From the NCBI RefSeq assembly GCF_964355755.1, contig NC_092676.1, positions 374,501 to 438,500 on the forward strand: a stretch of DNA of 64,000 bases, written 5' to 3'. Shown here piece after piece: positions 215 through 63,700 of the stretch (position 1 is its first letter; each line of letters opens with the position of its first letter). Source of the DNA: Antedon mediterranea (Eukaryota > Echinodermata > Crinoidea > Comatulida > Antedonidae). The notes below the pieces were generated by a model. It did not search any database, was not told the DNA's origin, and saw only the letters and a program-made list of their open reading frames with translations. The position numbers and the translations under genes are program-made.

Positions 215-1989
215 ATATCGCAGATTTAAATTTACCACAGACATGCCAGATTGAATACCCTGACCCAGATGACCTGCTAGACTTCAAACTCACAATTTCA
301 CCTGATGAAGGCTTTTATCGCAATGGTCGATTTGTATTTATATTTAAGGTATTCACAAATGACTTTTTTTATTCATTGTGTATATAGCGAAATTGAAAAA
401 TAATCTTTTAATTGACAGTTAAATAAAAATATAAATTCATTTTGGCAATAAATAGGGGGAAAATAAATATCAAAACAATTTTGTTTATTTTGTTATACTT
501 CTGCCCCTGAAGCTTTTTGCATACTTTATTTGTATCTCCATTGAGATAATCCAGCGCCACTAATACCCACAGAATTTTTCAGTAACTTGCCTTTTGATTT
601 TAATAGATAATTAAATATTATATTAGAATAAATTGCAACATTATTTTAATAATATTTGTGTTTAGGTTGGTCCAGGTTATCCACATGATGCACCAAAAGT
701 AAAATGTGAAACCAAGGTTTATCATCCAAACATTGACTTGGAGGGCAATGTATGTTTAAACATTCTCAGGTAAGACAGCCAATTCATCCAAACATTGACT
801 TGGAGGGCAATGTATGTTTAAACATTCTCGGGTAAGACAGCCAATTCATCCAAACATTGACTTGGAGGGCAATGTATGTTTAAACATTCTCAGGTAAGAC
901 AGCCAATTCATCCAAACATTGACTTGGAGGGCAATGTATGTTTAAACATTCTCGGGTAAGACAGCCAATTCATCCAAACATTGACTTGGAGGGCAATGTA
1001 TGTTTAAACATTCTCGGGTAAGACAGCCAATTCATCCAAACATTGACTTGGAGGGCAATGTATGTTTAAACATTCTCAGGTAAGACAGCCAATTCATCCA
1101 AACATTGACTTGGATGGCAATGTATGTTTAAACATTCTCAGGTAAGACAGCCAATTCATCCAAACATTGACTTGGAGGGCAATGTATGTTTAAACATTCT
1201 CAGGTAAGATAGCCAATTCATCCAAACATTGACTTGGAGGGCAATGTATGTTTAAACATCCTCAGGTAAGACAGCCAATTCTGGTTACCTTCTCCCAAAA
1301 TGTTTGTTATTCTGTAGTTAGTTTCTAAGTAAGTTGTATTCTGTGTGTATGTCAATTTTGTTTTCTGTTTTTTAGGGAAGACTGGAAACCGGTACTAACA
1401 ATCAGCTCAATCATTTACGGCCTACAATATCTTTTATTGGTATGTTCTAACAAATTTGATTTTGTTATTCCGAGTTCTTTATGAAAATACTTATTTCTTC
1501 TTTCAGTGAATGAAAACATGGTATTTTTTGTTTACATTTAAGTTAAGCTTTGTTAGAAAGTCATAGTCATTTGATTGAAAGTTTGTCATGCCTGCATATT
1601 AGAAATGACATTCAGTTGTAGAACTCAAATTAACACATCATTAAACCAGCCGTCATCACATTATTCCCTCGACAACACATGCCAGTAATACAATACGACA
1701 TACAGTGTATATAAAGTTAAAGTTAATGAGTGACTGTACCATTGTTTTCATTTTTCCATTTTGTTTCTTTCTATATTGCTTTATTTTATAATTATCTAAC
1801 ACTTTCTAATTATCTAACACTTTCTATCTCTTTTTAATTTTTAAGGAGCCTAATCCTGACGACCCATTGAACCGTGAAGCAGCTGAAGTTCTTAGACAAA
1901 ACAGGAAAATATTTGAGCAAAATGTAATGAAATCAATGCGTGGTGGATACATTGGCAATACATATTTTGACCGATGTTTAAGACTATGA
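215..1989 (+). CDS. UBE2M: NEDD8-conjugating enzyme E2 M (UBC12), 3' part of gene
   Basis: The visible exons are 215-348, 666-769, 1376-1439 and 1846-1989 (TGA 1987-1989); upstream exons lie before the window. The 147 complete codons align from memory with about residue 36 to the C-terminus of 183-aa human UBE2M. They include the HPN motif, the active-site context NVCLNIL with the catalytic Cys codon at 753-755, EDWKPVLTI, and a C-terminus close to MRGGYIG-TYF-RCL. The family accepts NEDD8 from the UBA3-NAE1 E1 as a thioester on this Cys and passes it to cullins through RBX1, which activates cullin-RING ligases. Exon phases join cleanly (1, 0, 2, 0). The second exon's 3' end and splice donor are repeated eight times in the following intron. 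UBE2F is the nearest alternative, but the residues fit UBE2M better. Confidence 0.95.
770..1280 (+). repeat. 62-bp tandem array duplicating a UBE2M exon end and its splice donor
   Basis: Each 62-bp unit holds 46-47 bp of the exon ending at 769 (from CATCCAAACATTGACTTGG through the active-site Cys codon) plus the donor GGTAAG and about 12 bp of intron. The motif CATTGACTTGG recurs at 731 (real exon), 793, 855, 917, 979, 1041, 1103, 1165 and 1227, so there are eight extra copies, each with a GT donor. Copies differ by single bases only (CTCAG or CTCGG; one GGATGG). Reading through the true donor gives AGG TAA, an immediate stop. Confidence 0.95.
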
Positions 1990-2339
1990 TAAGGAAGCTA
2001 GGAAAGCTGTAATGTAAGCGGTCTAGCGTTCCTACCAACAGTTAGTTGCTCTGTCAAACCTTTAAAAATGCTATTATTATTTATATTTGAATCCTGTACC
2101 CAACAACTTTGATTTAATGTAAATTTTCTAATGATTATTTAAATAAGCATGTATTGTGGGAGGCCTTCTTGAGTATATCATAAGCACCATTTGGGTTGTG
2201 GTTGAATCCTAAGACTTCACAGTCTTTTTAATTTACATATGGAAGTAAATTTAACTGAAATATTAACATTTTAGAGCCCAGAGCCTCTTAACACCACTTG
2301 TTGCTATACATATCTAGAATTAACATACCCACAACCCAG
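1990..2339 (+). other. UBE2M 3' untranslated / downstream sequence
   Basis: AT-rich sequence directly after the UBE2M stop, with no coding potential. It is presumably 3' UTR. I could not pick a convincing polyadenylation site here. Confidence 0.5.
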
Positions 2340-2592
2340 ATAAACAATCAACAGGATTAAGTTTAGGGGAAATGACAATGTAGTGACAGTGAGATGGTCT
2401 AGAGAAACAATGAACAGGATTAAGTTTAGGGGAAATGACAATGTAGTGACAGTGAGATGGTCTAGAGAAACAATGAACAGGATTAAGTTTAGGGGAAATG
2501 ACAATGTAGTGACAGTGAGATGGTCTAGAGAAACAATGAACAGGATTAAGTTTAGGGGAAATGACAATGTAGTGTCAGTGAGATGGTCTAGT
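2340..2592 (+). repeat. 63-bp tandem repeat, four copies
   Basis: Four consecutive 63-bp units contain AACAGGATTAAGTTTAGGGG and GTAGTGACAGTGAGATGGTC. Because 63 is a multiple of three, the array stays open in several frames on both strands, giving short repetitive ORFs that I do not regard as genes. It lies 350 bp after the UBE2M stop. Confidence 0.9.
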
Positions 2593-19600: not shown

Positions 19601-22600
19601 ATATGGCTTGGTTCAACCATATATTTGCCAGACTTGGTACCCAGGTGATATTTGGTGATATATGGCTTGGTTCAACCATATATTTGCCAGACTTGGTACC
19701 CAGGTGATATTTGGTGATATATGGCTTGGTTCAACCATATATTTGCCAGACTTGGTACCCAGGTGATATTTGGTGATATATGGCTTGGTTCAACCATATA
19801 CAGTATTTGCCAGACTTGGTACCCAGGTGATATTTGGTGATATATGGCTTGGTTCAAATAAAGAATTTAAACTTGGTTTCATCATCTATTATCTTTTTAA
19901 TGCTCTTCTATTGTATTGATAAACATATTTGTTAGACAAGTATACAGTGTTTTCTTTCATATATATCTTGTCAGATCCAAAAGGAGATTAAATACATCTC
20001 CTCGATACAAACACCGTGGTCCTGCAGGAGCTCACAGCCAGCAGTTCATATTCATTGATGGCTTTATCACGCTGAAGTCATCACCATACCTTGTGGTTGG
20101 TATATCAAACCCAGAGTTGGAAGAAAAGTCAGAGGTGGCGCTTTGTAAGAAGACAGAGGATGATCCGTCATTAAGATGGGAATTTACTGAAGATGGGTAA
20201 GTACCATACTTAAATGTTTTGCTATTACTTATACAGAGGAGGGTGTGTGGTATAAATTACTGAAGATGGGTAAGTACCATACTTAAATGCAGGGTCTGTG
20301 GTGTAACCCCTGACAATATCATCTTAAATTATATTCATTCAGAGTTAATTGTTTTTTCTTACCCTACTAAATTGGCAAATATGTTTTGTTAACTGAATTT
20401 TCTTTATTTGAAAGGTACATCCAATCCAAGGTTAACGAAGATCTTGTCCTTGCTGTCTCAATGCCCAATTTCACTGGAACAGCCATGGAGGGCGCATATT
20501 GTGGTCAGTCGGTTGTAATTCAACGCAAACAGAATTTAGAGAATGGTGGAGCCAATCAGAAGTGGATGTTTGAGAAGGAGTTTGGGTTTATGTATGCATT
20601 TCATGCTGAACCACTTGATAGAGGTAGGTATTCAATTTTGAGCAACTTGACAGCTAAGTAGATTTTGTGTCTAAAACAACGATGGAATACCATGAATAGC
20701 TTTCACGTTTAGGAATTGGTAGAGGTACTAATTCACCAACCAATGTTTTTCCAAATGTATTGATAACCATTGTAATCTGCCCCTAAGTATACTTAGATCA
20801 ATAAAGGTCCCAAGTATCGGGCCCATCCATCAACGATGTAATTTAGCATTCCAGTTTTTAATTTCATACAATTTTATTGGTTTTATTTTCAAAGAAATAA
20901 TGGCAGCAAATAAGGCTGGCGTTTGTACTTATGCAGTAGTTGGTGAGAATCAAGTCCAGCAAAATGTAAGACATTTATTTTTATTGAAACTATATAAATA
21001 TATCTAATTTTACCACTGAAATTCAATGTATTTTATTTCAATTCAATTTTTAATTTGTATTTGTAGGGGTATGACGTAGTTGAAACTAAAGTAGATGGAG
21101 ATATCAAAGTTTGTGTAGCATGCGCAAGAGCTATGAGAGGCAATTACAAACTAAAAAAACAAGAACATTCAACACCTTTCATATGTGCTGTTGGTATAGC
21201 TCCTAAGATAGGACTTAAACTTATAGGTAGCTTTCAGTGTCTTAGTGGCAAGGTAAGAACATTCAACACCTTTCATATGTGCTGTTGGTATAGCTCCTAA
21301 GATAGGACTTAAACTGATTGGTAGCTTTCAGTGTCTTAGTGGCAAGGTAAGAACATTCAACACCTTTCATATGTGCTGTTGGTATAGCTCCTAAGATAGG
21401 ACTTAAACTGATTGGTAGCTTTCAGTGTCTTAGTGGCAAGGTAAGAACATTCAACACCTTTCATATGTGCTGTTGGTATAGCTCCTAAGATAGGACTTAA
21501 ACTGATTGGTAGCTTTCAGTGTCTTAGTGGCAAGGTAAGAACATGCAACACCTTTCATATGTGCTGTTGGTATAGCTCCTAAGATAGGACTTAAACTTAT
21601 AGGTAGCTTTCAGTGTCTTAGTGGCAAGGTAAGAACATTCAACACCTTTCATATGTGCTGTTGGTATAGCTCCTAAGATAGGACTTAAACTGATTGGTAG
21701 CTTTCAGTGTCTTAGTGGCAAGGTAAAAACATTCAACACCTTTCATATGTGCTGTTGGTATAGCTCCTAAGATAGGACTTAAACTGATTGGTAGCTTTCA
21801 GTGTCTTAGTGGCAAGGTAAGAACATTCAACACCTTTCATATGTGCGTTTGGTATAGCTCCTAAGATAGGACTTAAACTGATTGGTAGCTTTCAGTGTCT
21901 TAGTGGCAAGGTAAGAACATTCAACACCTTTCATATGTGCTGTTGGTATAGCTCCTAAGATAGGACTTAAACTGATTGGTAGCTTTCAGTGTCTTAGTGG
22001 CAAGGTAAGAACATTCAACACCTTTCATATGTGAGCTCCTAAGATAGGACTTAAACTGATTGGTAGCTTTCAGTGTCTTAGTGGCAAGGTAAGAACATTC
22101 AACACCTTTCATATGTGAGCTCCTAAGATAGGGCTTAAACTCAGTGCCGGCCTTAGAGGGAAGGTAAGAACAGATGTTTTGCAATTTTAAATTAATGATT
22201 TTATTAGATAAATATTCTTTTTTACTTGGGTTTATTTAGGTGATATACTGGATATACTAAGGTCTCCTACATTCAGATCAAATTAATCTTAACTTGTGAT
22301 CATTAAATTACTGGTTGATTTTATCCAGAATTTGTCCAAACCATTTATGATATCAAAATAAATACATGTTCTTTCTAGGTTGATTTATCAAGTTTTGAAG
22401 CGGAAAATACAGTGATTCAATATGAAAAGGAATTAAAAAGATTGAAACAAATGTCAAGTGCTCGTCTGATTGCACGGGAAATATCTGCATATCAACCGAT
22501 CCAATCAGTACGAGTTTTGGCGTACAAGAATGGAGATGGACGCAGTAATAACCCTGTTGTTGTCATTGGAAGCACCATCAGAGGGGTAAGATTTATTTTC

Positions 22601-32745: not shown

Positions 32746-32803
32746 TTTAAATCTAGCGCATCTAGGGTCTAGCGTGCTGTTAAACAGAATAATCGGTTAA
32801 AAA

Positions 32804-33246: not shown

Positions 33247-33888
33247 TTAAAAACAGATGATTTCATTTTTACAGAAACCGGTCCTATATATTTGTCTACT
33301 TTTGGATGGGGGGGGGGGGTAGTTGACCGGGGGGTAGTTGACCGGGGGGTAGTTGACCGGGGGGTAGTTACCCGGGGGGTAGTTATCCTAAGGGGGTAGT
33401 TGTCCTAAGGGGGTGGTTGTCCGGGGGGTAGTTGTCCGGGGGGTTGTTATCCTAAGTGGGTAGTTGTCCTAAGGGGGTAGTTGTCCGGGGGGTAGTTGTC
33501 CGGGGGGTAGTTGTCCTAAGGGGGTAGTTGTCCGGGTGGTAAACATCCGGGGGGTAACTGTCTAGGGGGTAGGTGTCCTAGAACCGTTTCAACGTACGTA
33601 CGAGGCCTGTCGTTACTATTCTAATTTTTTTTATTAATGACGAATGTAAATTTAGGCCTACGAGAATATTATGGGAATATGAGACAGAAAGACAAATGTG
33701 TCATAGTTGTAGAGTCGATGACGACGATTACCATAAACGTTCTTTGTGTTGATTGGTGAGTGAAATTTTCACGTACTACGCGGAGTGCGCGCGTGTTGCC
33801 ACACTGCATTTTGGGAATAAATAATTATTGTATATCGCCTATATACATTAACTACATGATATGTGTAAACCGTATATTTTGTATGATC

Positions 33889-40646: not shown

Positions 40647-43600
40647 ATGGCAGACGGCTGGGCAAACTTCCCATCTAATGAGGTAAGGATACTTATTAGG
40701 AAGTGTTACACGTCGACTATGTTTGCAAACGCTCAAAACGTCCAGACAAGGCTAAGCCTACGTACGACAAACATACCGTAATCATCCGGCCTATCCAGGC
40801 AATCCACAGGCGAGAAACACCTTTATGCACTTACTGGAGCTGCTGAGCGAGCGAACTACTAGGGCCTAGCAATGTTGAGCCTAAGCAAGCTTAGATTGCG
40901 TTTAATTATGTATTTACACTAGAATGAAAGGTACCTACACGATACTTTAAAGGTAAATTATTATGTAATGCATTCCATAAACAAGTATTTGATTGCTCTT
41001 CCCAAACTTTCCTTTTCTTTTTTTGATATCTTTTTTTTTACTGATGATGTCATGTATGTTTTGTATAGGGGAATGAAAATGGGCAACAAGAAGAGGATTG
41101 GGATGATTTTGGCGGCTTTGAAGGTGCAGAACCAATGCCTGCTGAGTTAGCACAACAAGATGTCCCACATGTAGAAGCTAGCCCTTCACCATGGGCTGTT
41201 TTCTCAACAGGTAATTCATATTTCAATGCTACAAGAAAACTCACCAGTGTTGAATTAAACAGGATTTTGGAAAGAGCCATGCATGTTTTGAATGAGCCAA
41301 TATATGGGGAACCTGACCGTACCATTTTCAAACATAGTGTAATTGTAAATATTTGGAATTTTATTGTTAAAACAGTTTGATTTTTTTGTAGGAAGTTCAG
41401 GTGCTGCTCAACCAGACTTACTCATTGCTCCAGCACAACCTACCTTACCAAAAATGGATCATTCCTTCTTGAATAACTCCTCTCCAGAAGTAACAGCAAT
41501 GGGAGGTTCCATTCCATGTCAAGGGGCAGTTGGTGGACCGCCTGAAATTACTATGCAAGCAGAAGCATCCGTGCTACAGGCAGCTGCAGGTCAGGCAGAA
41601 ACAGATCGGCAACAGTCGCTTAAAGATATTGATGTTGATCTTGTATTGGATGATAGATTAGATATTATTGTAAGTTTCCATGGGTATAATTAATTGAATT
41701 GGAAAATACTGTGGCAAAGGATGGGAGGAAATATTTTCTTTTGAGTACTTGGATAAAGTGACTTAGTTGAAAGACTAATATAAACATATATGTTATCTCA
41801 CCCAAAACTGTATGTGTTTGTAATGTATATGTTTCCATATGTTATGCTATTAAATGTCTATGCAATATTGTAACTTCATTATTTAAAAACATACAAAACT
41901 TTTGTAATTCATCATGATTAACTTGTAAAATTGTAGGTTGTTTTTGAGGTCATCCAAATGTCATAGTGTGTTTATTTTAAAGGGGTCAAGAAAAGGAAAT
42001 GCTATTGTGAATGGAGGTGCTTGGAATGATAGTCCTGTGTTTAGAGGTTCCCATGGCAACCAATCACATCCTCACCAAGAGCAAACAGCTCAGTTATCTA
42101 GAAGAGTTGAAAACATGGAGGAACAGTTATCAGTTGTAGATCGTGAGAAAGAGCGATTACAGCAGGTATGTTGTTATTGTCTCAGTTATTCTGTGTTATT
42201 CAGTTTTATTTCTATAAATAAATATATATAATACATTATATATCATCTATTACTCTTTTATCCCTGCTTTTTTTTGTAGAAACTGCACGAAATGTCCACC
42301 AAAAATGATAAACTTCAAGAAGAATTATTAAAAGAAAAAAGTGAATTAGAAGAACAACTTAAAAAATATAAAGATTTAGAATGTAAACACAAAGGAGATA
42401 TTGACGAATTGAGAAAAGCTGGACATGATACGCTAGCTATTATGTTAGAAGAGTATAAGGTATTAGCAATGAACATCTCCCTTAGCCTAAGTACCAACTT
42501 AGTTAACAAGCTGGACATGATACGCTAGCTATTATGTTAGAAGAGTATAAGGTATTAGCAATGAACATCTCCCTTAGCCTAAGTACCAACTTAGTTAACA
42601 AGCTGGACATGATACGCTAGCTATTATGTTAGAAGAGTATAAGGTATTAGCAATGAACATCTCCCTTAGCCTAAGTACCAACTTAGTTAACAAGCTGGAC
42701 ATGATACGCTAGCTATTATGTTAGAAGAGTATAAGGTATTAGCAATGAACATCTCCCTTAGCCTAAGTACCAACTTAGTTAATAAGCTGGACATGATACG
42801 CTAGCTATTATGTTAGAAAAGTATAAGGTATTAGCAATGAACATCTCCCTTAGCCTAAGTACCAACTTAGTTAACAAGCTGGACATGATACGCTAGCTAT
42901 TATGTTAGAAGAGTATAAGGTATTAGCAATGAACATCTCCCTTAGCCTAAGTACCAACTTAGTTAACAAGCTGGACATGATACGCTAGCTATTATGTTAG
43001 AAGAGTATAAGGTATTAGCAATGAACATCTCCCTTAGCCTAAGTACCAACTTAGTTAACAAGCTGGACATGATACGCTAGCTATTATGTTAGAAGAGTAT
43101 AAGGTATTAGCAATGAACATCTCCCTTAGCCTAAGTACCAACTTAGTTAATAAGCTGGACATGATACGCTAGCTATTATGTTAGAAGAGTATAAGGTATT
43201 AGCAATGAACATCTCCCTTAGCCTAAGTACCAACTTAGTTAACAAGCTGGACATGATACGCTAGCTATTATGTTAGAAGAGTATAAGGTATTAGCAATGA
43301 ACATCTCCCTTAGCCTAAGTACCAACTTAGTTAACAAGCTGGACATGATACGCTAGCTATTATGTTAAAAGAGTATAAGGTATTAGCAATGAACATCTCC
43401 CTTAGCCTAAGTACCAACTTAGTTAACAAGCTGGACATGATACGCTAGCTATTATGTTAGAAGAGTATAAGGTATTAGCAATGAACATCTCCCTTAGCCT
43501 AAGTACCAACTTAGTTAACAAGCTGGACATGATACGCTAGCTATTATGTTAGAAGAGTATAAGGTATTAGCAATGAACATCTCCCTTAGCCTAAGTACCA

Positions 43601-46092
43601 ACTTAGTTAACAAGCTGGACATGATACGCTAGCTATTATGTTAGAAGAGTATAAGGTATTAGCAATGAACATCTCCCTTAGCCTAAGTACCAACTTAGTT
43701 AACAAGGTGGACATGATACGCTAGCTATTATGTTAGAAGAGTATAAGGTATTAGCAATGAACATCTTCCTTAGCCTAAGTACCAACTTAGTTAACAAGGT
43801 GGACATGATACGCTAGCTATTATGTTAGAAGAGTATAAGGTATTAGCAATGAACATCTTCCTTAGCCTAAGTACCAACTTAGTTAACAAGCACCACCTTA
43901 GTTAAATAAGCACCAAATCAGTTGAATAAGTACCAATTTAAGTGAATCAGCACCAACTTAGTTGAATAAGTACCAACTTAGTTAAATAAGCACCAACTGA
44001 CTTGGATTTGAAATAAGTCTGTTCTGTTTTTAGTTGGATAAGTACCAACTCAGTTGAATAAGTACCAACTTAGGTGAATAGGTACCAATTTAGTTGAATA
44101 GGTACCAATTTAGTTGAATAAGTACCAACTTTACTTGTTTTTTAAATAAGTGTTCTGTTTTTTAGGGATTGTGTAAATGCGCTATTTTAGAGCAACAGGA
44201 AGCAAATGAACAAAGATTAAAAGATGCACTTACAAGAGAATCAGATAAATGCCAGGCCTTAATGTTGTCACAGGTTTGTTTATAATTATGGTTTCTACAG
44301 GACTTTTGTTGGTATACTGTAATAAACAGTTTCTCTATTTAAACAAGCATCATTTTAAAAACTTAACTGTAAGCATTAATATCTTATGTATAGCCTTTTT
44401 AATATTACTTATTCAGGTGTAAGGCCTCATTCCTATATTTGGAATGATTACACCAAACACCATTTTGTATTATGACCCATAACCCATGTTGTGTTGAAGT
44501 TGGTGTTCTTGCATTGTTTTATTCTGGTCTTTGTTTTTTTCAGCATGAGAAGCTAATTGGTCTACTAGAAGAAGAAAAGAAATCAAATGAAGAACAAATG
44601 AATTGCGCAATAGCTGAACTAACAAAAAAACATGAACAAGAAATTGAAAATGTTATAATTTCTCAACAGCAAAAAGCAGAAGAAAAAAACAAAAAAGCAG
44701 TAGAGGTAAATATACATTTAGTAAGAATTGTTGCATACTGTATAACATATATATTAACATGGAATCACCTTTTGGGAGCATTTGTAATAATCATATAATG
44801 GTTTATTTTAAGGTTATGGAACAGACCCACAAAGAGTCAATGGAAAAATTACTTAAAGAACAACAAGAGAAAGCGAAGGGAGCTTTAGAGAATGAAAGAA
44901 AAATAGTTTTAGAAATGATTGAAAAGGAAAGAACAAAAAGTAAAGAAGCGTTGAGTAAAGCATTGAAAGAGGAAACAGACAAGGCAAAGGTAGGATGCTG
45001 ATGCTTTATATAATGTTTGTTGTTTGTTTTAACCCTTTCACTGTGAATGTCATAATTTGTGGCTTATGATGCTTGGCTACCAATCTAAGGGTCATGGGTT
45101 CAAGTCCTGTCATATGTCAGGATTTTTCTAATAACAATTTACAACTCCACTCCCAAAGACTTGTAATAAGACTTTGTTTATGTAGAGCATCTTGTGTATA
45201 TGTTTGTCTTGTGAACAGGATTACCACCTTTAAAAAAAAAGGATAGTGAATGAATTTGCTTATTGTTATCCGTGGCAATTTGCCTAAATATATATAAAAC
45301 AAAATATTAAAAGATACATAATTAATAAGGTTTTATTTTTGATTGAGGTTGCAATAAAAGAAGCACTTTGTGAAGAGAGGAAGACGCAAGAAGAAGCCAA
45401 TAAATATGCCGCAGACAAAACAAAGTCACTGATAATGGAACATCTAAAAGAACAAAAGAATGTTAGTGTGTTATAAATTATTACATTATCATTGTATTTA
45501 TTATTACATTCATCATCTCAGACATTATTTTGGACTGATGTTTATACATTTATACTTGTTATTCTGTCATAAATTATTTTCAAAATTAGTAGTACAGTCA
45601 ACTCTCCCAATACCGGACACCTTTGGGCTGGCCAAATATGTCTGGTTTTTAATGGTAAAATTGAATTTGGGACTGTTTGGACTTCAAGAAAAGTCTGGTA
45701 TGGAGAGTTTCCAGTTTCATCATCAAGTCTGATATTGGGAGAGTTTCCAGTTTCATCATCTAGTCTGATATTGGGAGAGTTTCCAGTTTCATCATCAAGT
45801 CTGATATTGGGAGAGTTTCCAGTTTCATCATCAAGTCTGATATTGGGAGAGTTTCCAGTTTCATCATCAAGTCTGATATTGGGAGAGTTGACTGTAGTAG
45901 GTATGTTGCTATTCTTTGTCTGCATTTTCAATTTATAATTTAGTTTTGTGTGTTTGTCTTTATCAGGCTGACAGTGCTGTCCGTCAACGATCACTTGCAA
46001 GCATCGATTTATTCCTAGAGGGCGCTAAACAACAATTACATATATTGTTAGACACTCCTGTAAAGTCTTCCAAAGATGGTGTTGATAGCTGA
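40647..46092 (+). CDS. CCDC91: Coiled-coil domain-containing protein 91 (GGA-binding partner p56), 501 aa
   Basis: Exons 40647-40682, 41069-41210, 41392-41669, 41983-42165, 42280-42459, 44166-44273, 44544-44705, 44813-44989, 45348-45461 and 45967-46092 sum to 1506 nt (501 aa; human about 441). The family binds the ear domains of GGA adaptors and helps trafficking between Golgi and lysosome. Residues 24-30, DDFGGFE, match the human N-terminal GAE-binding motif. Residues from about 200 on are a long Lys/Glu-rich coiled coil, including IDELRKAGHDTLAIMLEEYK (human: MRKAGHEALSIIVDEYK). The C-terminus VRQRSLASIDLFL matches human VIRQRSLSSLELFL. The donor of exon 5 (AAG/GTATTA) is weak and lies at the head of a 92-bp array that repeats it 15 more times. 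The last donor (AAT/GTTAGT) is also unusual. Confidence 0.93.
42460..43889 (+). repeat. 92-bp tandem array duplicating a CCDC91 exon end and donor
   Basis: Each unit holds the last 41-42 bp of exon 42280-42459 (GGACATGATACGCTAGC to GAGTATAAG), the donor GTATTA, and about 50 bp of intron (GCAATGAACATCTCCCTTAG). GGACATGATACG occurs at 42421 (exon), 42513, 42605 and so on every 92 bp to 43801: 15 intronic copies. Variants are few (AAAAGTATAAG, AATAAGCTGG, ACAAGGTGG, CATCTTCC). Readthrough meets TAG in the next copy. Confidence 0.96.
43890..44145 (+). repeat. Decayed short tandem repeat after the 92-bp array
   Basis: Degenerate units of about 20 bp, GTACCAACTTAGTTGAATAA and variants, apparently derived from the tail of the 92-bp unit (GTACCAACTTAGTTAACAAG). 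They run almost to the polypyrimidine tract of CCDC91 exon 6. Confidence 0.8.
45061..45120 (+). repeat. tRNA-derived SINE-like fragment
   Basis: Contains GCTTGGCTACCAATCTAAGG and a box-B-like GGGTTCAAGTCC. No complete cloverleaf could be drawn. CCDC91 intron 8. Confidence 0.4.
45593..45896. mobile_element. MITE whose right end is amplified as a 36-bp tandem array
   Basis: Same family as 4875 and 12588, starting TACAGTCAACTCTCCCAATA and ending ATTGGGAGAGTTGACTGTA. Near the right end, the unit GTCTGATATTGGGAGAGT plus TTCCAGTTTCATCATCAA is repeated five times at 36-bp spacing (about 45690-45890). Each unit contains the TIR core. The array is open in both directions (36 is a multiple of three), giving spurious ORFs. 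Confidence 0.85.
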
Positions 46093-50535: not shown

Positions 50536-53500
50536 ATGAACAGAAGAAAAAAAAACAGAGAATCTGACGATTCATTGAACTATGAATCTGAAAGCAGACA
50601 AAGATTTGAAGATTCTGATGATCGAACCAGTCATTTCTCAAGTTTACAAACTCACGTCTATGATGATGGAACCAATACATATTTTTGGTAAACTGTTTTA
50701 TAAAAAATCGACACTCTTCTCTCATCTTCCCTTTAAAGGACATACTACTCGTTTTCTTCACTCTACTCTACCTCACTCACTGTCACTCGCTCAATCTCTT
50801 CATCTTAACGCGTCTTCCTCTTCTGTGCTTGACATTAAAACTGCCCTTAAAGCCTGTCAGTCGACACTATTATCGTTAAAAGTTCAACGACGATCGTTTG
50901 AAAACGATCAAGTTGAAATGATAACGATAGCGCGAACATTTGATTTCTAGCGTTGAACGTTAGAGTTGAAAACTCATGTCTTCTCTCTCGAAGTCGTCGT
51001 AACGCGAAAAAATGAATAGAGGATTCCGCTGCCTCTACTAGAGGAGGCTCACAGTGTAGGAGATGTGGGCCTAGGCATACTAATATCTCTATACTGATGG
51101 TTCTTTGTTTTCAGTAGGCCTATCCTAGCCCAAATAGCATTTTGGACTTAGGCAGAATACTTAGACCTACCTAATATCCCTACGCCTACTTTCTGGAACA
51201 TCATTTTATAGTCACTTTGGCAAGGCCAGGCCTAGCTTTGACCGCGCCGCGATGCAACAAATATAAATGTAGTAAGCAGAATTTTCCATCAATTACGTGA
51301 CGTCATGTGCTGTATTGCGAAGATGATTGGTCAGTTCTTACGTTTTAGCGTTGCGATATCGCTAGATTTGAACTGGATTCAACTCTTGCGATTGTCACCG
51401 ATTGCGAATTGTAGCGTCGATTATTACACCTTTTCCTGTAAGTCGCCGACGTTTTGTATCATCGCCGTTAGTTAAAAAAGTACCTTTTCCTGTAAATCGT
51501 TAACATTTCAATGTTTACGTAGGAGATCGCCGATTATTGTTAACGATAGCGTCGAATAACGTCAACAGGAAAACAGGCTTAAGATGTAACCTATAATTTC
51601 TTACACTTTTATTAATTATTATAATAACAATAATTACAATAATTAAAAATAATAATAATTACTACAGTAGTAATGACTCTAATTTTTATGTGTTTAAATT
51701 AAACACATAAAAATTTAAATTTTAAATGTAAATATGTATAATTATGTTTGTATGATGTAGTATGTTTTAGCGGATTTTAGCCCTTGATGGCATTTGCAGC
51801 AATAAAGAAATTGAATTGAATTAATGCGAGAACCACTTCCATATTGACCATTGGTTGTTAAAAAGATTATAGCAAAATACAAGCATATGATGAAGCTATG
51901 CTGAAATGTTTTTTATTATTCTGACTGGACACTAACCAGTAAAGTAATTCTTAATTCCATGGGCTCAAAAGTATCAAAATCTCATCAATCTTAAATTTAG
52001 AACTCTGGTGATCTAAAAAGTGTTATGCAGATCAATAATTATGTATATATCTTCGGCAAATAGAGGTTAATGATAATATTTCTTGAAAATTTTTGTGTAA
52101 TCTTGAATTATTTGTGTTTTTTTTCTCAACATACAGGCGTGCACATTCTATTACAGTGTTGTGTTTGATGATAATATCCCTAGTGTATGTAGCCTTAGTA
52201 GAAACAGACACTGGCAATGACACCAATTTTCATGTCAAAAGGTAACCAAGGTCGACTGTTTATTTCAAAATTTAAAAACTTCAAGAATATTTGTTTTTAA
52301 TACATGAGGGAGAAAGATTCCAGCATAGTCTATTGTAGAACATCCCTTCTATTAATACATGAGGGAGAAAGATTCCAGCATAGTCTATTGTAGAACATCC
52401 CTTCTATTAATACATGAGGGAGAAAGATTCCAGCATAGTCTATTGTAGAACATCCCTTCTATTAATACATGAGGGAGAAAGATTCCAGCATAGTCTATTG
52501 TAGAACATCCCTTCTATTGGGGACAATTTATAGTTTATTCCTCACTTTTTTATTATTTCTTCCTCACATTTTTGAAGATTCCTTAGTCAGTAGCTTTCCC
52601 TTCCTACTCTTTTTAAAGATAACATGATCATCTTATTAAAGTTATCAAACTAAAATAAATGCATTTTATTTCAGAGGCATTGTAGCATGTGTCGTCATAT
52701 TTTGTTTGTGGGGTATGACTCAAGCCAAAGATGGTCCCTTCCAACGCCCTCATCCTGCTGTCTGGAGACTTGTCTTGTGTCTATGTGTTGTTTATGAGCT
52801 GCTTTTGGTCTTTATACTTTTTCAGGTGAGTAGTGTTTGTATAGTTGTTTTGCCCTGTGTTTGCTTGGCCCTCAAAGCTGTGACATTGCATTCTTTTGTA
52901 TTTTATTTAAAATAAATTTTATATATCGATGAAATCAAAATGCTATTATTGTTAACTGAAGGTAATGATTGGTTTGCAAGAATATAGAAATAAGATTGTT
53001 TGATAAACTGTATTTTGTTTTGATCTCAAAGAACATTGTTTATTCTCAAATCAAATCTGTTTTTTACAGACAATTGATGATGCAAGAAAATTTGTAGGAT
53101 ATTTAGACCCAGAGCTTGGTAAACCTCTAAAAGAACAAACATATGCAGAAGATTGCAGGCTGTATGTACCAGGTCATCCTGATGGACCTTTCGCTAATTT
53201 CTGGGTTTGTCTTGGTTTTTTTTTATTGTAAATTTAGACATATTGCCAGCCAAGTATAATCTATCATTCACTGTCCTCCAAAAGTGCCAACTCTGATCAC
53301 AGAATAAACATACATAATTGTAAACAAAAGTCCCCTTTGATATAATCTTTCCCAAAATTTTTAATTTAGTCAAAAAATCTTTGAAAAAAGTTGGTTAATT
53401 TGTGACACAAAGAAAAACTCTTCTATGTTTTATTTTTCAGATTAAAATGGATTTTTTTGTCTTCAGTCATTTGTTTGGATGGTTTGTTAAGGTAAAGTTG

Positions 53501-56500
53501 ACAATGTAGTTAGAATAATTTTATAATTTTATAATAATACTGTACCGGAAATTAATTGAATACTTTGATGAATTTAACTTGAAGTTTAGAACTTAGCTCA
53601 TTCGTCCCTTTGTTGACGTCATAACTGGAAGCTCTGAAAACATACGCGTGAAACTTAAGGTGTTGGTTAGAAAAAATGTCCAGAATCCACGCTTAAATGA
53701 GTTGACATTACATTTATTCTATTATTTATTCTCAAAATGTTTGTGTTTTTATAGATGATAATTGTTCGTGACTTTTGGATATGTCAGCTGCTTAGTCTTG
53801 GTTTTGAACTTCTAGAATATTCTTTAGAGCATCAATTGGCAAACTTTGCAGAATGTTGGTGGGATCATGTAAGTTTATACATAGTTCCAGTTTATTTTCC
53901 ATTTCAATTTATGAACATAAGATAAACAACTTATATGGATGGATAACCGTAAAAGCGAAGCTCGTTAGCCGGTCACCCGTTAGTGCAGTGACATTACAGA
54001 CAACATAAAGACAAGACAAAGGTGCAATACATAACAAGACATGTGAACACTTGTTTCAGTCTAGGTTCAATCTTTAGAAAATTACTTCACCTTATTAGCT
54101 TTGTTGGTGTAAATTTATCAATTCCAGGAAAATATATTAAATAACAAATTAAACTTCTCAAATGGGACAATGTTTAGTCATGCGATTTATGAAGGGATAT
54201 AGTAACAAATTGGGGTTACAGTAGTGCTATTATAGATGTATCATGTTATTCTATATGCAGTACATTACAGATGAACATCACCCATGAGCATGAATGTTAA
54301 TAGAGTCTTGCGCTATTCTATTTCAGTGGCTTATGGACTTTTTAATTTGTAATTCACTTGGTATAATTATTGGTCAGATGACTTTGAAGTATCTTAACAT
54401 TAAAGAATATCATTGGCATGGCTTATGGAATATTCAGTCGTACAGGTAGAGTGTGTAATTGCATATTAATACTGTCGTAGTAATAACATTTATTTCAAAT
54501 TTTAACTTCATTAGTAATAATGATTATTCTTCACCCAGGATGAATAAATGTGATAAAATTATTTTTATGTCATTTTTACTTGGGAACTTTTTTTCAATTT
54601 TTTTTTCAATTCAAATATTCTTTATTCATCCTCTATCATGAAAATATACAACAACAATATATGAGAACATAAAAAAGATGAAAAGGAAACACATAAAAAC
54701 TCAAAAGAGCTTGATTAGTTGTGTCCCCCTATGTCCCTAACTAGCCTAAAAAACTAAAACATAAATAATAAAAAAGCTAAATCCTGCAACAAGTATAATT
54801 TTTAAAATTATTTGTAAAATGATAATAAATGTTCTTTAAACAATGATTTAAATATGTATATTGATTTGGTACTTTGTAGTTCGTAATTCAAGTCATTCCA
54901 CAATTTGGGTCCCACACATGACACAGTAAAACTAGTAGAAGTACGATTACGTTTTCTGAGTCTCATTTTGTCTTTAGATCTTGTATTATAATTATGGTAA
55001 GAACCATTTTTAATAAAGAGCGATGAAAAACGCACGTCCTGATTAGTAGTAACATTATACATGAGAAGCCCAATTTGGTACTTATTGATATCCGCAATTT
55101 TAAGAAGTTTAAATTTATAGAAACATTCTTCAGTACAAGACTGTTCCCAGTATACAACTCACAATACAATGAAAAAACTTGCATATAACACAGAAAAAAC
55201 ACCACCCACCACACTTATTTTTGTTAACCTTTGTTTAAATCTATACATTTTGTGTGTGGATTAAATCATATTTCTTTTATTTTCAGAGGTAAGGTTATGC
55301 GTGTATTCCAGCAGTTTACTCCTTACAGCTGGACACGCTTTGATTGGAAACCAACCAAGAGTCTCAAACGTTGGCTTGCAGTTATTGGAATTATGTGTAT
55401 GGTAGGTAAAGCCTTGTCTACACTATCAAACTTTATGTGACAAAAAAAAAATGTGATGTGCCCATATATGGACATGTCAAATATCATTACCATATTTGGG
55501 CATATCACTACCACTTTGTTAAACTAGTTTGATAGTGTTGACAGAGATTTATGCATTATAATAATTTACAGATACAAATAACTATAGATTAAAGTGTTTT
55601 TGTAATGTTTACATGTAATTTTTTTGTTTTTAGTTTGAAATTGCAGAATTGAATACGTTTTACTTGAAGTTTATCCTATGGATCCCACCGCCACATTTTA
55701 TAAATTGGGGGCGCATGTTAATTCTTGGGCCAGCTGCTGTTGTCGCCATAAGAGAAACTTACCAATATTTGGAAGATCCGTAAGTTGTCAACAATAAATT
55801 GATCTATTTATTTTTAATCTATTAAAATGCAGTGCTCGCTGAATCAAGGAACAATTGTTAGCCCACACAGGTGAATTTCTTAAATTAAATTAAACACGCA
55901 AAATGTCAGAACAACTTTGTTCCTGGTTCAACAGACCCTTAAATGTGTGTACATTTTTGCTTGCCATGGGGCCTAGGGTAACTGATTCTGTATATTTTTG
56001 CTTGCCATGGGGCCTAGGGCAACTGATTCTGTACATTTTTGCTTGCCATGGGGCCTAGGGCAACTGATTCTGTACATTTTTGCTTGCCATGGGGCCTAGG
56101 GCAACTGATTCTGTACATTTTTGCTTGCCATGGGGCCTAGGGCAACTGATTCTGTACATTTTTGCTTACCATGGGGCCTAGGGCAACTGATTCTGTACAT
56201 TTTTGCTTACCATGGGGCCTAGGGCAACTGATTCTGTACTTATTTGCTTGCCATGGGGCCTAGGGCAACTGATTCTGCAAGCACTAAAATAAGGAATATT
56301 AGTCATATACTAAAAACTTGTAGTTTCAATATTTTATTGGTTTTTTTTCAGCACCTGTAAAAAGTTTGGTCAGCAATCTTGGATAATTTCAGCAATGGTT
56401 GTAACAGAAGTTTTGATTGTTATGAAGTTTGATTTACCTCTGGTCCTGCGACCTTTCCCGACCCACATCGCCCTCCTTTGGCTCATCGCATTTATCTGTC

Positions 56501-56727
56501 TCGTTGTCTGGACTATATTTCAATTCTACATTCGCCCACAATTTTTCACTCAAGTGCCGTCGCATTATGGATCTCCATCGAAATACGAGTCGTCATCGAA
56601 ATACGAGTTGTCGTCAAATTATAAATCACGGTTTAATGCTAAATCTGAGGAGTACAGTCACAGCATTAGTAACGGAACACATCAGCCTTATTCCCTGAGA
56701 GCAAGACGGCCGATTAATGGGAAATAG
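50536..56727 (+). CDS. PTDSS2: Phosphatidylserine synthase 2, 487 aa
   Basis: Exons 50536-50687, 52137-52241, 52675-52825, 53070-53204, 53441-53491, 53755-53868, 54327-54445, 55287-55401, 55634-55779 and 56352-56727 sum to 1464 nt in frame. The 487 residues equal the human PTDSS2 length. The enzyme swaps serine for ethanolamine in phosphatidylethanolamine at the ER (mitochondria-associated) membrane. [15 protein letters not shown] near the N-terminus favours PTDSS2 over PTDSS1. Conserved stretches include [49 protein letters not shown] and [10 protein letters not shown]. Several hydrophobic segments are consistent with a multi-pass membrane protein. The charged N-terminal 40 residues and the Ser/Tyr-rich tail diverge. 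A MITE begins six bases into the intron after exon 8. Confidence 0.95.
50846..51583. mobile_element. Possible inverted-repeat element in PTDSS2 intron 1
   Basis: The left end CTTAAAGCCTGT and right end ACAGGCTTAAG are imperfect inverses. Related words continue inwards (ACACTATTATCGTTAA versus TAACGATAGCGTCG). The inside is unusually rich in CG dinucleotides and CGTT/AACG words. No ORF. Boundaries uncertain. Confidence 0.4.
51681..51715. repeat. 35-bp near-perfect palindrome
   Basis: AATTTTTATGTGTTTA, then AAT, then TAAACACATAAAAATT: 16-bp arms around a 3-bp loop. AT-rich; it could form a hairpin. Confidence 0.85.
51716..51830 (+). mobile_element. Probable retroelement 3' tail
   Basis: Ends GGCATTTGCAGCAATAAAG, then AAATTGAATTGAATT. 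A conserved-looking stretch ending in a short ATTGA-type microsatellite is typical of CR1-like LINE or SINE 3' ends. No coding part remains. Confidence 0.4.
52298..52518 (+). repeat. 55-bp tandem repeat, four copies, in PTDSS2 intron 2
   Basis: Unit TAATACATGAGGGAGAAAG, ATTCCAGCATAGTCTATTG, TAGAACATCCCTTCTAT. Starts at 52298, 52353, 52408 and 52463. Copies look identical. Noncoding. Confidence 0.93.
54595..55215 (-). mobile_element. 3' end of a non-LTR retrotransposon (LINE), minus strand
   Basis: The minus strand reads [13 protein letters not shown] just before the 54808-55062 frame, then [13 protein letters not shown] and [14 protein letters not shown], ending [14 protein letters not shown]. 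This is the conserved C-terminus of LINE ORF2 (consensus style HxYxTRx...GPxLWNxLPxxIR...FKxxLKxHL). The coding part ends at 54808; the rest is an A/T-rich 3' tail. 5'-truncated copy in PTDSS2 intron 7, opposite to the gene. Confidence 0.8.
55407..55551. mobile_element. MITE with CTCTGTCTACACTATCAAAC ends next to a splice donor
   Basis: About 145 bp. Left end TAAAGCCTTGTCTACACTAT; right end TTTGATAGTGTTGACAGAG. The left end begins at intron position +6 after PTDSS2 exon 8 (exon end 55401, donor GTAGG then the element). Confidence 0.8.
55948..56275 (+). repeat. 41-bp tandem repeat, eight copies, in PTDSS2 intron 9
   Basis: Unit GTACATTTTTGCTTGCCATG, GGGCCTAGGGCAACTGATTCT. Eight copies of CATGGGGCCTAGGG. 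Variants: TATATTTTTG in one, TTACCATGG in two, GTACTTATTTGC in the last. Noncoding. Confidence 0.92.
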
Positions 56728-59160
56728 TTGGCATCATAGTGGATTATCTTAGGATTAGTACAGTCACTAATCTACTTACTCATTCTGTGTTATTAGTTTC
56801 ATTTTGTTGAAAGGGTTTTCAGATATCAAAATATAATAATCCTATATATGTATTTTTTTTAGGTTCTCACTCTTAACCACAGTAGTAAATTGAGAAGTAG
56901 TTCATTGATTGGAAACCAGTAATTTTAACTTACATTTCAAGATATTTAAAAATACTGTTTTGCAATCAATGAACTACATATCAATATACTAATTGAAACC
57001 AGAGGGAAATGTTTCATTACAGTAGTACATTTGTTTGTTACTTCCAAATTTGCTTCTCCACCATAATTTCTGATTTCTGTATTAATATTTTTTCTATGAA
57101 CAAAAGGCGATAACAAATATTTACTAAAAAGTTTCTTTTTACAATACTAAACAGGGACAAATTTCATTTTGTAATTTTGTTTAGCAAAATTGCTAATCAA
57201 ACTGATTTTTGAGTCAAGAAACATAGTTTTGTATTTTATTTTTTGCTACACAATTTTAGAAATGTGTAGCAATATTGTTGTTTTGTATAGCTTTTTGCTA
57301 TGCCACACTGGCGAAATTATTCCCTGCTAAAGACATACTTGAACAGTATATATTATATATTATTTATTATTTAAACGTATTGTCCTCCTCAACCATATAG
57401 CATACAGGGGAGAGATTTACTGGTCAATAATTGGACTAGTGACTTTATGAAACACGACTGGAAGCCACAGGATGGTGCTCATGAATAAGAGGTTTGCTGG
57501 TCTATAATTGGCTGTCTTAATTTGATATTACCTGTTCACTGTAATCCATATAGGGTTATTTGTCATCATAAACTACGTTGGGTTAACCCTATCATCATCA
57601 TCATTTAGGAACCCTAAGTGACCTTGGTTTTTTCCTCTGAGTACTGCTCAGGGGGCACTAGGTTTAGCCAGTAAGCGTTCATAGCCGTTTTTTTTAGTGC
57701 TTTTTCTATTGCTTCTATATAAGTTGTCATGGCTATGTAGTAGTCACATTGGTTAAACAAGGTTTCCATTGCGTGTTTGCATGTTGTCATGGTTTTTGTA
57801 CCATAGTTTTTTCAAAAAATATCATATTTTTATAAAAGTAACTGGATGTGTATTTTATATTCCACACAATTGCATTGTTTTCATCATTTTTGTTGAATAA
57901 TAACAGTTTAATCAATGCCATATCCAAAGGCTGGACTATCCCCTTTACAGTGATATGAATGCTTTTTTTCTTACCCTTTATGTGAAATTTCTGGATTCAC
58001 CACTAGGTTATCATGAAACAATTCATTTTTTTAATTTTGAAAACATGCCAAACGTTTTTCAATTAATTCTAATTAATTAAGTTGGTTTTGTTTTAAACTG
58101 TTTTATGAGTCATGTGTTGCATTAAGTTTTCTTTTTATCATAGATTGTTTATAGATTTAATTTTACTCGTTTGTTGTTGGTTTTTTCTTAATTGTAATTT
58201 ATAAGACCATAACGGTATGGTCAGTATTTAAGAGAAAAGATATTATATGATACAGTAAGGTGTCTTATTATGCAAATGAATGGTTATGAGTTGAATGGGG
58301 AGAATATTCTTATTAGGTTCATCTTTGTTTTGTGTGATCAATGGATTTTTATTACATCTTATGTGAGACCACCAATTCATTTAAATACAAATTATGTTTT
58401 ATTTACATGCAAATAATATATCTATTCCTTTATAAGCGCTGAATGACTTGCAATTATGTAGAAAATTTCGTTTTTAATGAGCATACCAGTCTACTAAGTA
58501 TTTAATAATTGAATCAAAAGAACATAAGTTCAAAGAAAACAAAATTTTAAAAAAGTAATGGAAGATTCTTTTATATTAAAGATATATTGACATCACATTG
58601 TCAAAATATAGATAATTGATGTTGTTGTGGATTTAAAATGAAAGCATTTTCAAATTTGTCTGTCAGATAATGAGGGGTTTATTTTGTCTTTTCATAAGTC
58701 AAATCATTTGGTTGTATGATTTTATTAGTCTTCATTTTTTTGGAGGACAATACATTTTTATCTGATGATCGGCAAAAAATAGTTTAAAATTGTGGGATGT
58801 AGAGTTATGTGACAAAGAAACCATGATTTTTTCATTGTTTCTAAGGGTAATTTAAGATAATTTTCACTAATAAACTGGAAAACAAGGTTCAATTTACTAC
58901 ATGCATTTGCTTTTAAAATGGTGTACTGTATGTGTTTCGTCTCGGATGGTATTGCAAATATAGTGTAATTGGGGCTCTGCAAATTATTAAAGATGTATAA
59001 ATTTGACATAAAATTATTTCATTATGAAATATAGTTTTTTTAATCACTTGTATCATAAACAATTTATACCGAAAACCATGGATTCTCCAAAAATTCCCAG
59101 TGAAAGTCAAATGTATTTTAAAAACACAGAAACGTGTCTGCTGCCACCACCATGTAAAGT
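56728..59160. other. PTDSS2 3' UTR and intergenic sequence
   Basis: AT-rich, no convincing ORF. A short CAT run lies at about 57593-57606. AATAAA near 58868 is a candidate polyadenylation signal, but it is 2.1 kb from the stop and uncertain. Confidence 0.45.
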
Positions 59161-59255: not shown

Positions 59256-59769
59256 TTAAAAACTACCGAAAAGCAACAAGGCGAGGCTAGCCCAGGCCGG
59301 CTTTTGTTGAAACAAAAACTTAAAATCACTACTTTACAATTAAATAAATAGCTACATTTGAGTAAGTATATAAATATATGATAATCTAGGTCAATACTGT
59401 AGTAGTAAACTTATTCATTTTAGGCATGAGAAGAAAGAGAGCTAGGCCTACGAGAGGCTAGAGCTAGGCCTAACCTGAAAAAGTTTCAGGGCCGGTTAAT
59501 CAGAGTAGGCCTCAGTCAGAGAGAGGAGGGTCTAGGCCTAGCTAGGTGGTACATGGTGGTACATTTAACTAGGCCTAGTGGCCTAGCCTAAGAATATTAA
59601 GCCTAGATAGGATTGATAATAGGCCTAGACTAGAGAAAAGAAATAATAATTTAATAGAAATATTATTATGATAACATAATTAATATTACAAGCAATTTGG
59701 GCCACTATTTGTAATTGTAGTAATAGATTTTTGATGGAATAAATAAAGTGAATAGGCCTATAATATACG
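59256..59769. other. Sequence between the CCAAT cluster and the 776-bp element
   Basis: Noncoding. Dense in TAGGCCTA-type words (59440-59640). A KIF18 noncoding first exon may lie here. Confidence 0.35.
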
Positions 59770-60545
59770 CCGTGGTTAGGATTCCGGCACCGGAACTCAA
59801 CTGCTCACCGTTAGGGAATCTGACACGCTATTGCGCATGCCCAGAGCTATGGGAAGTGAATTATAGCTTGCACTAATACTTAGTGTGCCACACCACGGAG
59901 AGTCGGAGTGTTATAGGGATTTACTGTAGCCTAGATAGTCGTTGCGCGAGCGAGAAAGCGATGGGATGAAACTTGGCCTAGGCCTATGCCATATATGAAT
60001 TAATAATTCAAATACGACTACGCCACGCGTTAAAATAATTATAATGATACTGTATTAATAAGTATCAGTATCTATCTAAGATTTAAGAATCGTAATGCTG
60101 TTTTTAGCGTTGCGACCCTGACTGACTTCCCGAACAGTTTTTTCACATCCACGCGGTGGCTGCCGTCAACAAATCAACTTGTGATTGCATGTTGTTATGT
60201 ACAGTATAATGCGTTATGAAAAATCATAAAACTAGTCATGTAATTATATAATTCATAATGATATGAAGTTTATATATGAATGAAGCAACCACTTTTTTTA
60301 ATTACAAAATAAATACTATAGGCCCACTGGTCACGTCTAACTGGTAGCCCTAGCCTAGATTAGTGGATCCCATATTAGAAGGCATCTAGGCTAGTTCGCC
60401 GTGTGGCGCAGCTATGAAATGATCCATCGCTGTTATTGTTGATAAGTATAGAGTCGCCGATTACCTTGCTCTGGGCATGCGCAATAGCGTGTCGGATTCC
60501 CTAACGCTGGGCAGTTGAGTTCCGGTGCCGGAATCCTAACCACGG
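59770..60545. mobile_element. 776-bp element with 78-bp terminal inverted repeats upstream of KIF18
   Basis: The left arm 59770-59847 (CCGTGGTTAGGATTCCGGCA to ATGCCCAGAGC) is mirrored by 60468-60545 with few mismatches. The flanks are also partly mirrored (AATAGGCCTATAATATAC versus GTATAATATAAAGGCC), so the true boundary may be a little wider. Both arms contain TTGCGCATGC. No ORF. It ends 166 bp before the KIF18 start codon. Confidence 0.8.
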
Positions 60546-60711
60546 TGTATAATATAAAGGCCCTATTATAAATATTTAAAATAGCATCATTCCATGTTAC
60601 ATTTTTCAGCTGAAACTTTTTTGCGCTATAGCCTAATCCTGATCTAGGCCTAAATCAGATGTATAACTTTTTTTAATAGATTGGAGGAAGAATTTAAAGT
60701 ATACCACCACT

Positions 60712-63700
60712 ATGACTTCTAAGCGAAGTAACATAGCGCTTTCTGGGTCAAATGAGAAATCAACCAATGTTAGAGTTGTGATACGTGTTCGACCTGAAAA
60801 CAGTCAGGAGGCAGAGTCTGGCTCGCGCAACATCATTGAAGTTCTTGATGACCAAATTTTAATATTTGACCCAAAAGAGCAACTGTCACCTCAATTCTAC
60901 CACGGAAAAAAAATCCGCAGAAGGAACATACTCGTACGCAAGAACAAGGATTTACGATTTGGATTTGATTGTGTATTTGATAAAAATGCTACGCAACAAA
61001 GTGTTTATGAAAGCACGACAAAACCTGTGATAGATGGATTGATGAATGGATATAATTGCTCTGGTAGGTGTGGTTTTTATTTTTGGTTCATTTTAAAGTT
61101 CTTAAATTCAATTTACAAGGCTTAATCATCAGGTTAAAGCATGGCAATGATACATCAGCATTTTTGCAATCATATTTAACGTACATATGCATGTTTAAAA
61201 AAAATTATGAATGAAAAAAAAAAAGAATGAATTCAATTATTATAATTCGTCAAAGCGACTATTTAAATTCTAGTTTGATTTGTAATTGCAATGTTTAATG
61301 GGTTCCACGTAACAATTGTCAAGAATTTAAAATTGATTATGTCTATTGTTTTTACTCATTGTCAATGGCAAGTTGTTTGTCTTTATAGTATTTGCATATG
61401 GAGCTACAGGTGCTGGTAAGACCTTTACCATGTTGGGTAATGGTACCAATTGTCCAGGAGTCATCTTCTTGACCATGATGGAGCTGTACAACCGAATTCA
61501 ACAAGTCCAAGCAGAGAAAGTATGTGATATTGCTGTCTCTTATTTAGAGGTAAGTTTTCATTAACATGTTTGTAAAAACTAAATGTACTACTAGTACTAG
61601 CAATGTTTTTATTTCTAGTGAATCACGTTAATAAGTAAACAACTAAAATCTTTTTCAGATTTATAATGAGACAATCAGAGATCTGTTGGTACCATCAGGA
61701 GCCCTGGCCGTACGTGAAGACCCACAGAAAGGTGTATGCGTAACTGGTCTATCGGTCCACAAGGTAACTTACTGTTCTTGTAGCCTAATAAAGGCACATG
61801 GAGTCATTGACAAATACAAAGTATTGACTTCACTGCTGGTGTTTACTTGAGTTTATACCATGGTATAAACTTTTTGATTTATATAACATTTAGACTCAAT
61901 GCTACTGTATTAAGTTCTTTCTATCATTATTTAAATAAGTCAAACATCACTTAGGAAAAATTAAAGTATTAGGCTTAACACAAAAGTAAAACATTACACT
62001 TAATTAAGTGTGATACAATAGTATTTATTGTAATTTGTGCTATGTTATTGTGTTACAGCCTGCTACAATAGTATTTATTGTAATTTGTGCTATGTTATTG
62101 TGTTACAGCCTGCTACAATAGTATTTATTGTAATTTGTGCTATGTTATTGTGTTACAGCCTGCTACAATAGTATTTATTGTAATTTGTGCTATGTTATTG
62201 TGTTACAGCCTGCTACAATAGTATTTATTGTAATTTGTGCTATGTTATTGTGTTACAGCCTGCTACAATAGTATTTATTGTAATTTGTGCTATGTTATTG
62301 TGTTACAGCCTGCTACAATAGTATTTATTGTAATTTGTGCTATGTTATTGTGTTACAGCCTGCTACAATAGTATTTATTGTAATTTGTGCTATGTTATTG
62401 TGTTACAGCCTGCTACAATAGTATTTATTGTAATTTGTGCTATGTTATTGTGTTACAGCCTGCTACAATAGTATTTATTGTAATTTGTGCTATGTTATTG
62501 TGTTACAGCCTGCTACAATAGTATTTATTGTAATTTGTGCTATGTTATTGTGTTACAGCCTGCTAGTGCACAGGATCTGTTTAGTATGTTACAGTTTGGA
62601 AATAAGAATCGAACTCAGCACCCAACTGATGCTAACGCTCAGTCTTCAAGATCACATGCTGTCTTTCAGGTTGGTTATTCTATAATCTAAAGCTCTAAAT
62701 ATTAGAGAGCTTTAGATTTCTGAAGACCTAGAAACAAGTTAGTTCATGGTAATTCATTGTGTAAATACATTTTTCAACACAGTTTTGGTGATTTCTAGGC
62801 CTATGACACATCAATTCCTCAATCCGTCTCAATTTTCCATTTAAACCGTATTTTACAGGGCCTATGGTGTTTTTGAAATCTGCATTTTTAATAGTTTTTT
62901 AACAGTATTTTAACATAGGCCTATATATAGTATTTTAACATTGCCTTTTTCTTTTTCTTGAAACGCTTTTGGCACATTCTGTTTACTCACAGTGATTCTT
63001 ATTAATCACAAAAGTCTGAGTCAAGAGTGGTCCTGAACTTGTATAAAGAATAAAACTCTGAAATAAACTACAATTTAATTTTGTATGGAATCAAAAATGT
63101 TTTATTTATTAACAAATTTTTTCCTTTTTTTTTGCAGGTGTTTGTAAGACAGAAAGACAGAACTGGCAATCTGAATGCAGACGTCAAACTGGGTAAGATG
63201 TCGCTGATTGATCTGGCAGGTTCAGAGAGAGCCATCGTGACCAGGAACCGTGGGGCTAGGTTTCAAGAAGGAGCCAACATTAACAGATCTTTACTTGCCT
63301 TAGGTAGCTGTATAAATGCTCTTGCCAGCAATAAGGTAAATGTACAATACATTATATTTTTATTTATTTTAAGTTTGGAAGGTAGGGTTGTTATTGAAAA
63401 AGATGAGTGTATGTTGGTAAGCAAGATAAAATCCTCTCTTACAAAATCTGAATTGTTTTCAGCATCAATTGCTTGTAAACCTGTTTGTTTATAATACAGA
63501 CATTTCCCCCAAATCCAACATCCTAATAAAAGACAGCATTTTCATATTTAATTTCGGTTGTTTCTTGTGTTTAGAAGGATAAGTTTGTACCATACAGAAA
63601 CAGCAAACTCACCAGATTGTTAAAAGATTCACTAGGAGGCAACTGTAATACTGTCATGATAGCTGCAGTGAGGTAACTGTATATAACCACTTCTATACAA

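Follow-up and report, generated by a model that had tools for sequence, protein, structure and literature searches.

The 64-kb window analysed here (G000:C7:374501-438500) comes from an assembly of 354 Mb in 18 chromosome-scale contigs and contains four tandem arrays that lie across exon-intron junctions, all of which were recovered by Tandem Repeats Finder (TRF). Three of them span donors, in UBE2M, DCDC1, and a CCDC91-like gene, and the fourth spans an acceptor, in a KIF18-type kinesin gene, so that either type of boundary can be duplicated; in each case the splice site of a real intron lies inside the repeated unit (table 1). The spliced UBE2M product (VGPGYPHD...NILR|EDWKPV..., the bar marking the junction) aligns with human UBE2M without gaps across NILR|EDWKP (E-value 1e-59), and the KIF18-type product gives a gap-free alignment with human KIF18A across VHK|PASAQ. 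DCDC1 was identified by its match to the Pfam model DCX2_DCDC1. The junction of the CCDC91-like gene was placed by its open frame and splice signals only; the name is taken from an earlier note on this DNA, and a Pfam search with the protein returned no match. The location of the four arrays on splice junctions, proposed in that note, is thus confirmed by TRF and, for two of the junctions, by homology to human proteins. Predicted exons with a SAM/Pointed domain (SAM_PNT) at 34-38 kb, between DCDC1 and the CCDC91-like gene, suggest an unlisted ETS-type gene, and a gene similar to phosphatidylserine synthase 2 (PTDSS2; 52184-56730) lies between CCDC91 and KIF18; its two arrays (41 bp x 8 and 55 bp x 4) are purely intronic.

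Table 1. Junction-spanning arrays of the window with their exons and adjoining features (window positions)
Feature	Position	Strand	Repeat structure or basis
UBE2M exon, 3' end seeding array	666..769	+	sequence and homology to human UBE2M
UBE2M donor array	722..1281	+	TRF, 62 bp x 9.0, 98% identity
UBE2M next exon	1376..1439	+	sequence and homology to human UBE2M
DCDC1 exon seeding array	21067..21252	+	sequence, gene finder
DCDC1 donor array	21161..22141	+	TRF, 94 bp x 10.3 (21161-22117), 96% identity; degenerate 84-bp units at 3' end
DCDC1 next exon (VDLSSFEAENTV...)	22379..22585	+	in frame with first donor
CCDC91-like exon seeding array	42280..42459	+	sequence, gene finder
CCDC91-like donor array	42416..43891	+	TRF, 92 bp x 16.0, 99% identity
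20-bp intronic minisatellite adjoining CCDC91 array	43868..44131	+	TRF, sequence
KIF18-type kinesin acceptor array	62014..62565	+	TRF, 50 bp x 11.0, 100% identity
KIF18-type exon 3' of acceptor array	62559..62669	+	sequence, homology to KIF18A

Structure and reading frame of the four arrays

The UBE2M unit joins the last 48 bp of the exon to the first 14 bp of the intron (first donor 769|770), and the 92-bp unit of the CCDC91-like gene is made of 44 bp of exon end, the start of the intron, and one 20-bp minisatellite unit from the adjoining intron sequence, with AAGC as microhomology at the array borders. In DCDC1, where the first donor follows position 21252, AAGAACA forms a 7-bp microhomology at both borders. 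The KIF18-type unit is composed of 45 bp of intron end and 5 bp of exon (CCTGC), and the acceptor that keeps the frame is the last one (62558|62559). Copy numbers had been given earlier as 8, 10, 15, and 10; TRF counts 9, 10, 16, and 11, so that three of the four were one too low and only that of DCDC1 agrees. A further two-copy donor duplication described in DCDC1 (21950-22141) turned out to be part of the main array, forming its degenerate 84-bp tail. DCDC1 also contains a coding minisatellite (26283-27315) of 21 copies of 48 bp (16 codons, YEESPATPATPLLSRT-like), whose period, unlike those of the junction arrays, is a multiple of three.

None of the four periods (62, 94, 92, and 50 bp) is a multiple of three, as the earlier note had stated, and its claim that readthrough into the arrays would be nonproductive was borne out as well. 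Among the copies tested, an open frame is obtained only through the first donor in UBE2M, DCDC1, and CCDC91, and through the last acceptor in KIF18. Later donors lead to a stop immediately after ...NILR in UBE2M, to a stop within about 25 codons in CCDC91, and to a stop in DCDC1, where the first donor joins SGK|VDLSSF in frame; the earlier acceptors of KIF18 shift the frame. The sites were also scored with position weight matrices derived from 62 donors and 63 acceptors of this genome; within each array the scores are nearly the same (7.1-7.5 in UBE2M; 7.6 in DCDC1, with one copy at 5.8; 4.4 for all copies in CCDC91; 4.6 for all copies in KIF18), and site strength therefore gives no indication of the copy that is spliced. 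Under exon definition, the splice site next to the exon would be favoured.

Other junction arrays and a myosin copy-number series

Junction-spanning arrays are a genome-wide phenomenon. A kinesin gene on contig C5 has an acceptor array of 20 copies of 70 bp (L013), a 58-bp array spans a donor of a myosin VI gene (seen in two pieces, L060 and L093), and TIMELESS has a donor array of 12 copies of 47 bp whose unit includes 5 bp of exon (L097). A 55-bp array lies on the donor of an open, unnamed exon (L094), and a decayed acceptor array was found at L058. Two further arrays picked up by their donor motif (L095 and L096) were rejected, as no exon was seen there.

A further case concerns a myosin-head family with at least 19 intron-containing copies spread over about 5.5 Mb (C3:19.6-25.2 Mb; L072-L078, L080, L081, and L083-L092). 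The exon end and donor ...NISIFALMNQ|GTAAGT is present as a single copy in 10 of the 19 paralogs and as 1.3 copies, that is, a single copy followed by a 27-bp copy of exon sequence just inside the intron, in four. Three paralogs have 2.3 copies, one has 8.3 (L081), and the remaining one, L075, has three copies of 82 bp. The seeded paralogs cluster in a single clade. Paralog L075 falls outside this clade and its units carry the exon variants of the other clade (GCACTTATG, not GCTCTCATG), so that its array probably arose independently at these breakpoints, although ancestry shared with the seeded clade and followed by loss is a conceivable alternative. Many copies of the family also have a 49-bp intronic array.

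Expected numbers and border signature

The window is both array-rich and junction-dense. Tandem arrays make up 16% of it (10,084 of 64,000 bases), compared with 3.5% of other gene loci and none of a Markov control, and a small gene finder combined with a score filter, from which minus-strand predictions were excluded because they looked like noise, gave 92 well-scored junctions; a count by hand would be perhaps about 135. Arrays expand from a single founder unit, and the null model therefore places one such unit per array at random. With 12 arrays whose periods sum to 704 bp, 1.2-1.7 junction-spanning arrays are expected in the window and four are observed (P = 0.03-0.09, in a window chosen for these very arrays). 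The statement that four arrays in 64 kb is far above chance thus does not hold, since the expectation is not near zero: the argument from extreme improbability fails and the observation is mildly surprising. The 59-bp (19560), 41-bp (55948), and 36-bp (45691) arrays, tried as additional junction arrays, all lie inside introns.

In gene loci picked only by a Pfam match (kinesin, tektin, and myosin), three of nine arrays span a junction, compared with 1.0-1.3 expected at a density of 2.0-2.6 junctions per kb, an estimate based on how exons are spaced in the tables of matches; the count excludes two weak or degenerate cases, L058 with its decayed acceptor units and L006 with two copies and only 4 bp of exon. 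Window and loci pooled give seven observed for 2.2-3.1 expected, a two- to threefold ratio (P = 0.008-0.037, uncorrected for the fact that the window was picked for its arrays). This small sample suggests that about 1-3% of splice junctions may carry arrays of near-identical sites, a share close to the expectation from random placement.

We also asked how often donor consensus 8-mers recur every 43-73 bp across the genome, relative to the reversed motif and normalised by single-motif counts. Three occurrences of CAGGTAAG at this spacing were matched 454 times and three of its reversed form 310 times, while single occurrences numbered 10,619 and 6,255, respectively (normalised ratio 0.86). For AAGGTAAG, the arrayed counts were 548 and 1,606 and the single counts 13,578 and 20,562 (ratio 0.52). 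The donor consensus is thus not enriched within arrays genome-wide, with the proviso that the test counts matches, which a few giant arrays dominate, and so rules out only a large enrichment.

The borders of the arrays carry a signature of their own. Microhomology could be read in 11 clean arrays, after exclusion of those with nested or partial end copies; the values for DCDC1 and CCDC91 (7 and 4 bp) were read by hand, as the TRF edges contain mismatches. It ranges from 0 to 7 bp, is at least 2 bp in 10 of the 11 arrays, and sums to 31 bp, whereas 8.7 bp would be expected if tandem duplications with these periods arose at random (P = 5e-5). Junction arrays (2, 2, 4, and 7 bp) and non-junction arrays (0, 2, 2, 2, 3, 3, and 4 bp) are alike in this respect, which argues that a common birth process probably underlies both. 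Neither this shared border signature nor the two normalised ratios lend support to a bias towards AGGT or splice-site sequence, one of the explanations put forward earlier. The idea of a genome-wide amplification process stands as a general expansion of minisatellites, in line with the junction arrays found elsewhere in the genome.

Relation to amphioxus mirages and origin of the arrays

The arrays of this genome are of the same kind as the "mirage" minisatellites of amphioxus, described in Adh3, the globins BflGb6 and BflGb9, troponin C, and PGBD5. These have units of 10-160 bp over donor or acceptor junctions, vary in length, and have AG/GT signals in most units; globin RT-PCR and Adh3 data suggest undisturbed splicing, and length and somatic instability have been reported, the latter for Adh3 (PMC3087553, PMC3902484). 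As in amphioxus, the unit spans the exon-intron boundary in all four arrays of the window, either the 5' or the 3' boundary is duplicated (three donors and one acceptor in the window, with more at L013, L060, and L097), and length varies, here among paralogs rather than alleles (1, 1.3, 2.3, 3, and 8.3 copies at one myosin junction). Unlike the amphioxus cases, copy numbers reach 16-20, several unrelated genes are affected, one family shows a copy-number series, and the host is probably ambulacrarian rather than cephalochordate. The latter assignment relies on tektin similarity: two tektins match the sea urchin sperm tektins of PDB 8snb with 406 and 516 bits, whereas the best other chains, from mammals, reach 288 and 317 bits, in a comparison that included no amphioxus tektin. 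We found no report of mirages from echinoderms in the open-access literature. The kind of structure is known; what adds value here is the scale, the extension of a little-studied amphioxus structure to another, probably ambulacrarian, lineage, and the graded copy numbers of the myosins. Arrays that offer the spliceosome as many as 20 equal sites amount to natural experiments on its choice, and the C3 myosins make the birth of minisatellites and their effect on splicing directly testable within one genome.

With ordinary intronic or coding minisatellites (VNTRs), represented by the non-junction arrays of the window, the junction arrays share periods, identity, and border microhomology; they differ in having exon sequence and a splice site within the unit. 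We consider it likely that ordinary minisatellite birth, falling on a junction by chance and tolerated by splicing, accounts for them. Minisatellites and junctions are both numerous in the genome, so that no targeting is needed. A short, microhomology-mediated tandem duplication would happen to land on a splice junction, and the array would afterwards gain and lose copies as any other minisatellite. Splicing would normally use the exon-proximal site (the first of the donors, the last of the acceptors), so that surplus copies would remain intronic and the array would be close to neutral.

Alternatively, splice junctions might be preferred birth places, R-loop-linked breaks or slippage at AG|GTAAG favouring tandem duplication. 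The two- to threefold pooled ratio would fit such a preference, as would the C3 myosins, in which two clades with the same exon and intron breakpoints and clade-specific exon sequence suggest recurrence. However, donor motifs are not in excess in arrays genome-wide, intronic and intergenic arrays have the same border microhomology, and the window was selected for its junction arrays, and we regard this explanation as unlikely. A version in which junctions are true hot spots, with tandem duplication several-fold above random, arrays of competing identical sites in several percent of introns, and repeated births at the same breakpoints, appears if anything less likely.

That the arrays are regulatory, their internal sites being used and the nonproductive transcripts tuning expression, would agree with the similar splice-site scores retained by all copies and with the frameshifts or stops that other copies produce. 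On the other hand, recent minisatellite turnover would produce high identity anyway, copy number varies freely among paralogs, and amphioxus mirages are reported not to disturb splicing, which makes such a role very improbable. We give still less credit to nascent introns formed by tandem duplication of AGGT, also suggested in the earlier note. AGGT does occur in the donor units of UBE2M (in most copies), DCDC1, and CCDC91, and intron gain by tandem duplication has been documented in potato RdRp (PMC4974935) and proposed for mirages (PMC3087553). Both situations involve a duplication around a splice signal, but here the units sit on the junctions of existing introns, no array combines donors with acceptors, and none of those in the window showed a new intron that could be spliced. 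Finally, inflation of single copies by the assembly is the least credible explanation, for although the 11 KIF18 units are 100% identical and the near-identity of the KIF18 and CCDC91 copies leaves room for copy-number error, unit variants are interspersed in UBE2M, DCDC1, and CCDC91, the flanks are unique, paralogs of one gene differ in copy number at the same junction, and the contigs are chromosome-scale.

Other repeats were observed in the window, in which an Rfam search gave no match. Two arrays of 15-bp period (ACCCCCTGGACAACT and its complement) at 31891-33578 face each other as inverted arms of 170 bp; between them lie a 22-bp array and another inverted pair, and the whole may be a DNA element whose subterminal arrays are inverted. 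A structure resembling a non-autonomous DNA transposon lies a short way upstream of the KIF18-type gene (59759-60556); its inverted repeat arms are 89 bp long, 94% complementary, and 620 bp apart. The KIF18 intron that follows the array exon contains a dispersed repeat (62840-62960) with more than 30 copies genome-wide, part of which occurs as a 25-bp tandem array at C6:22761894-22762103.
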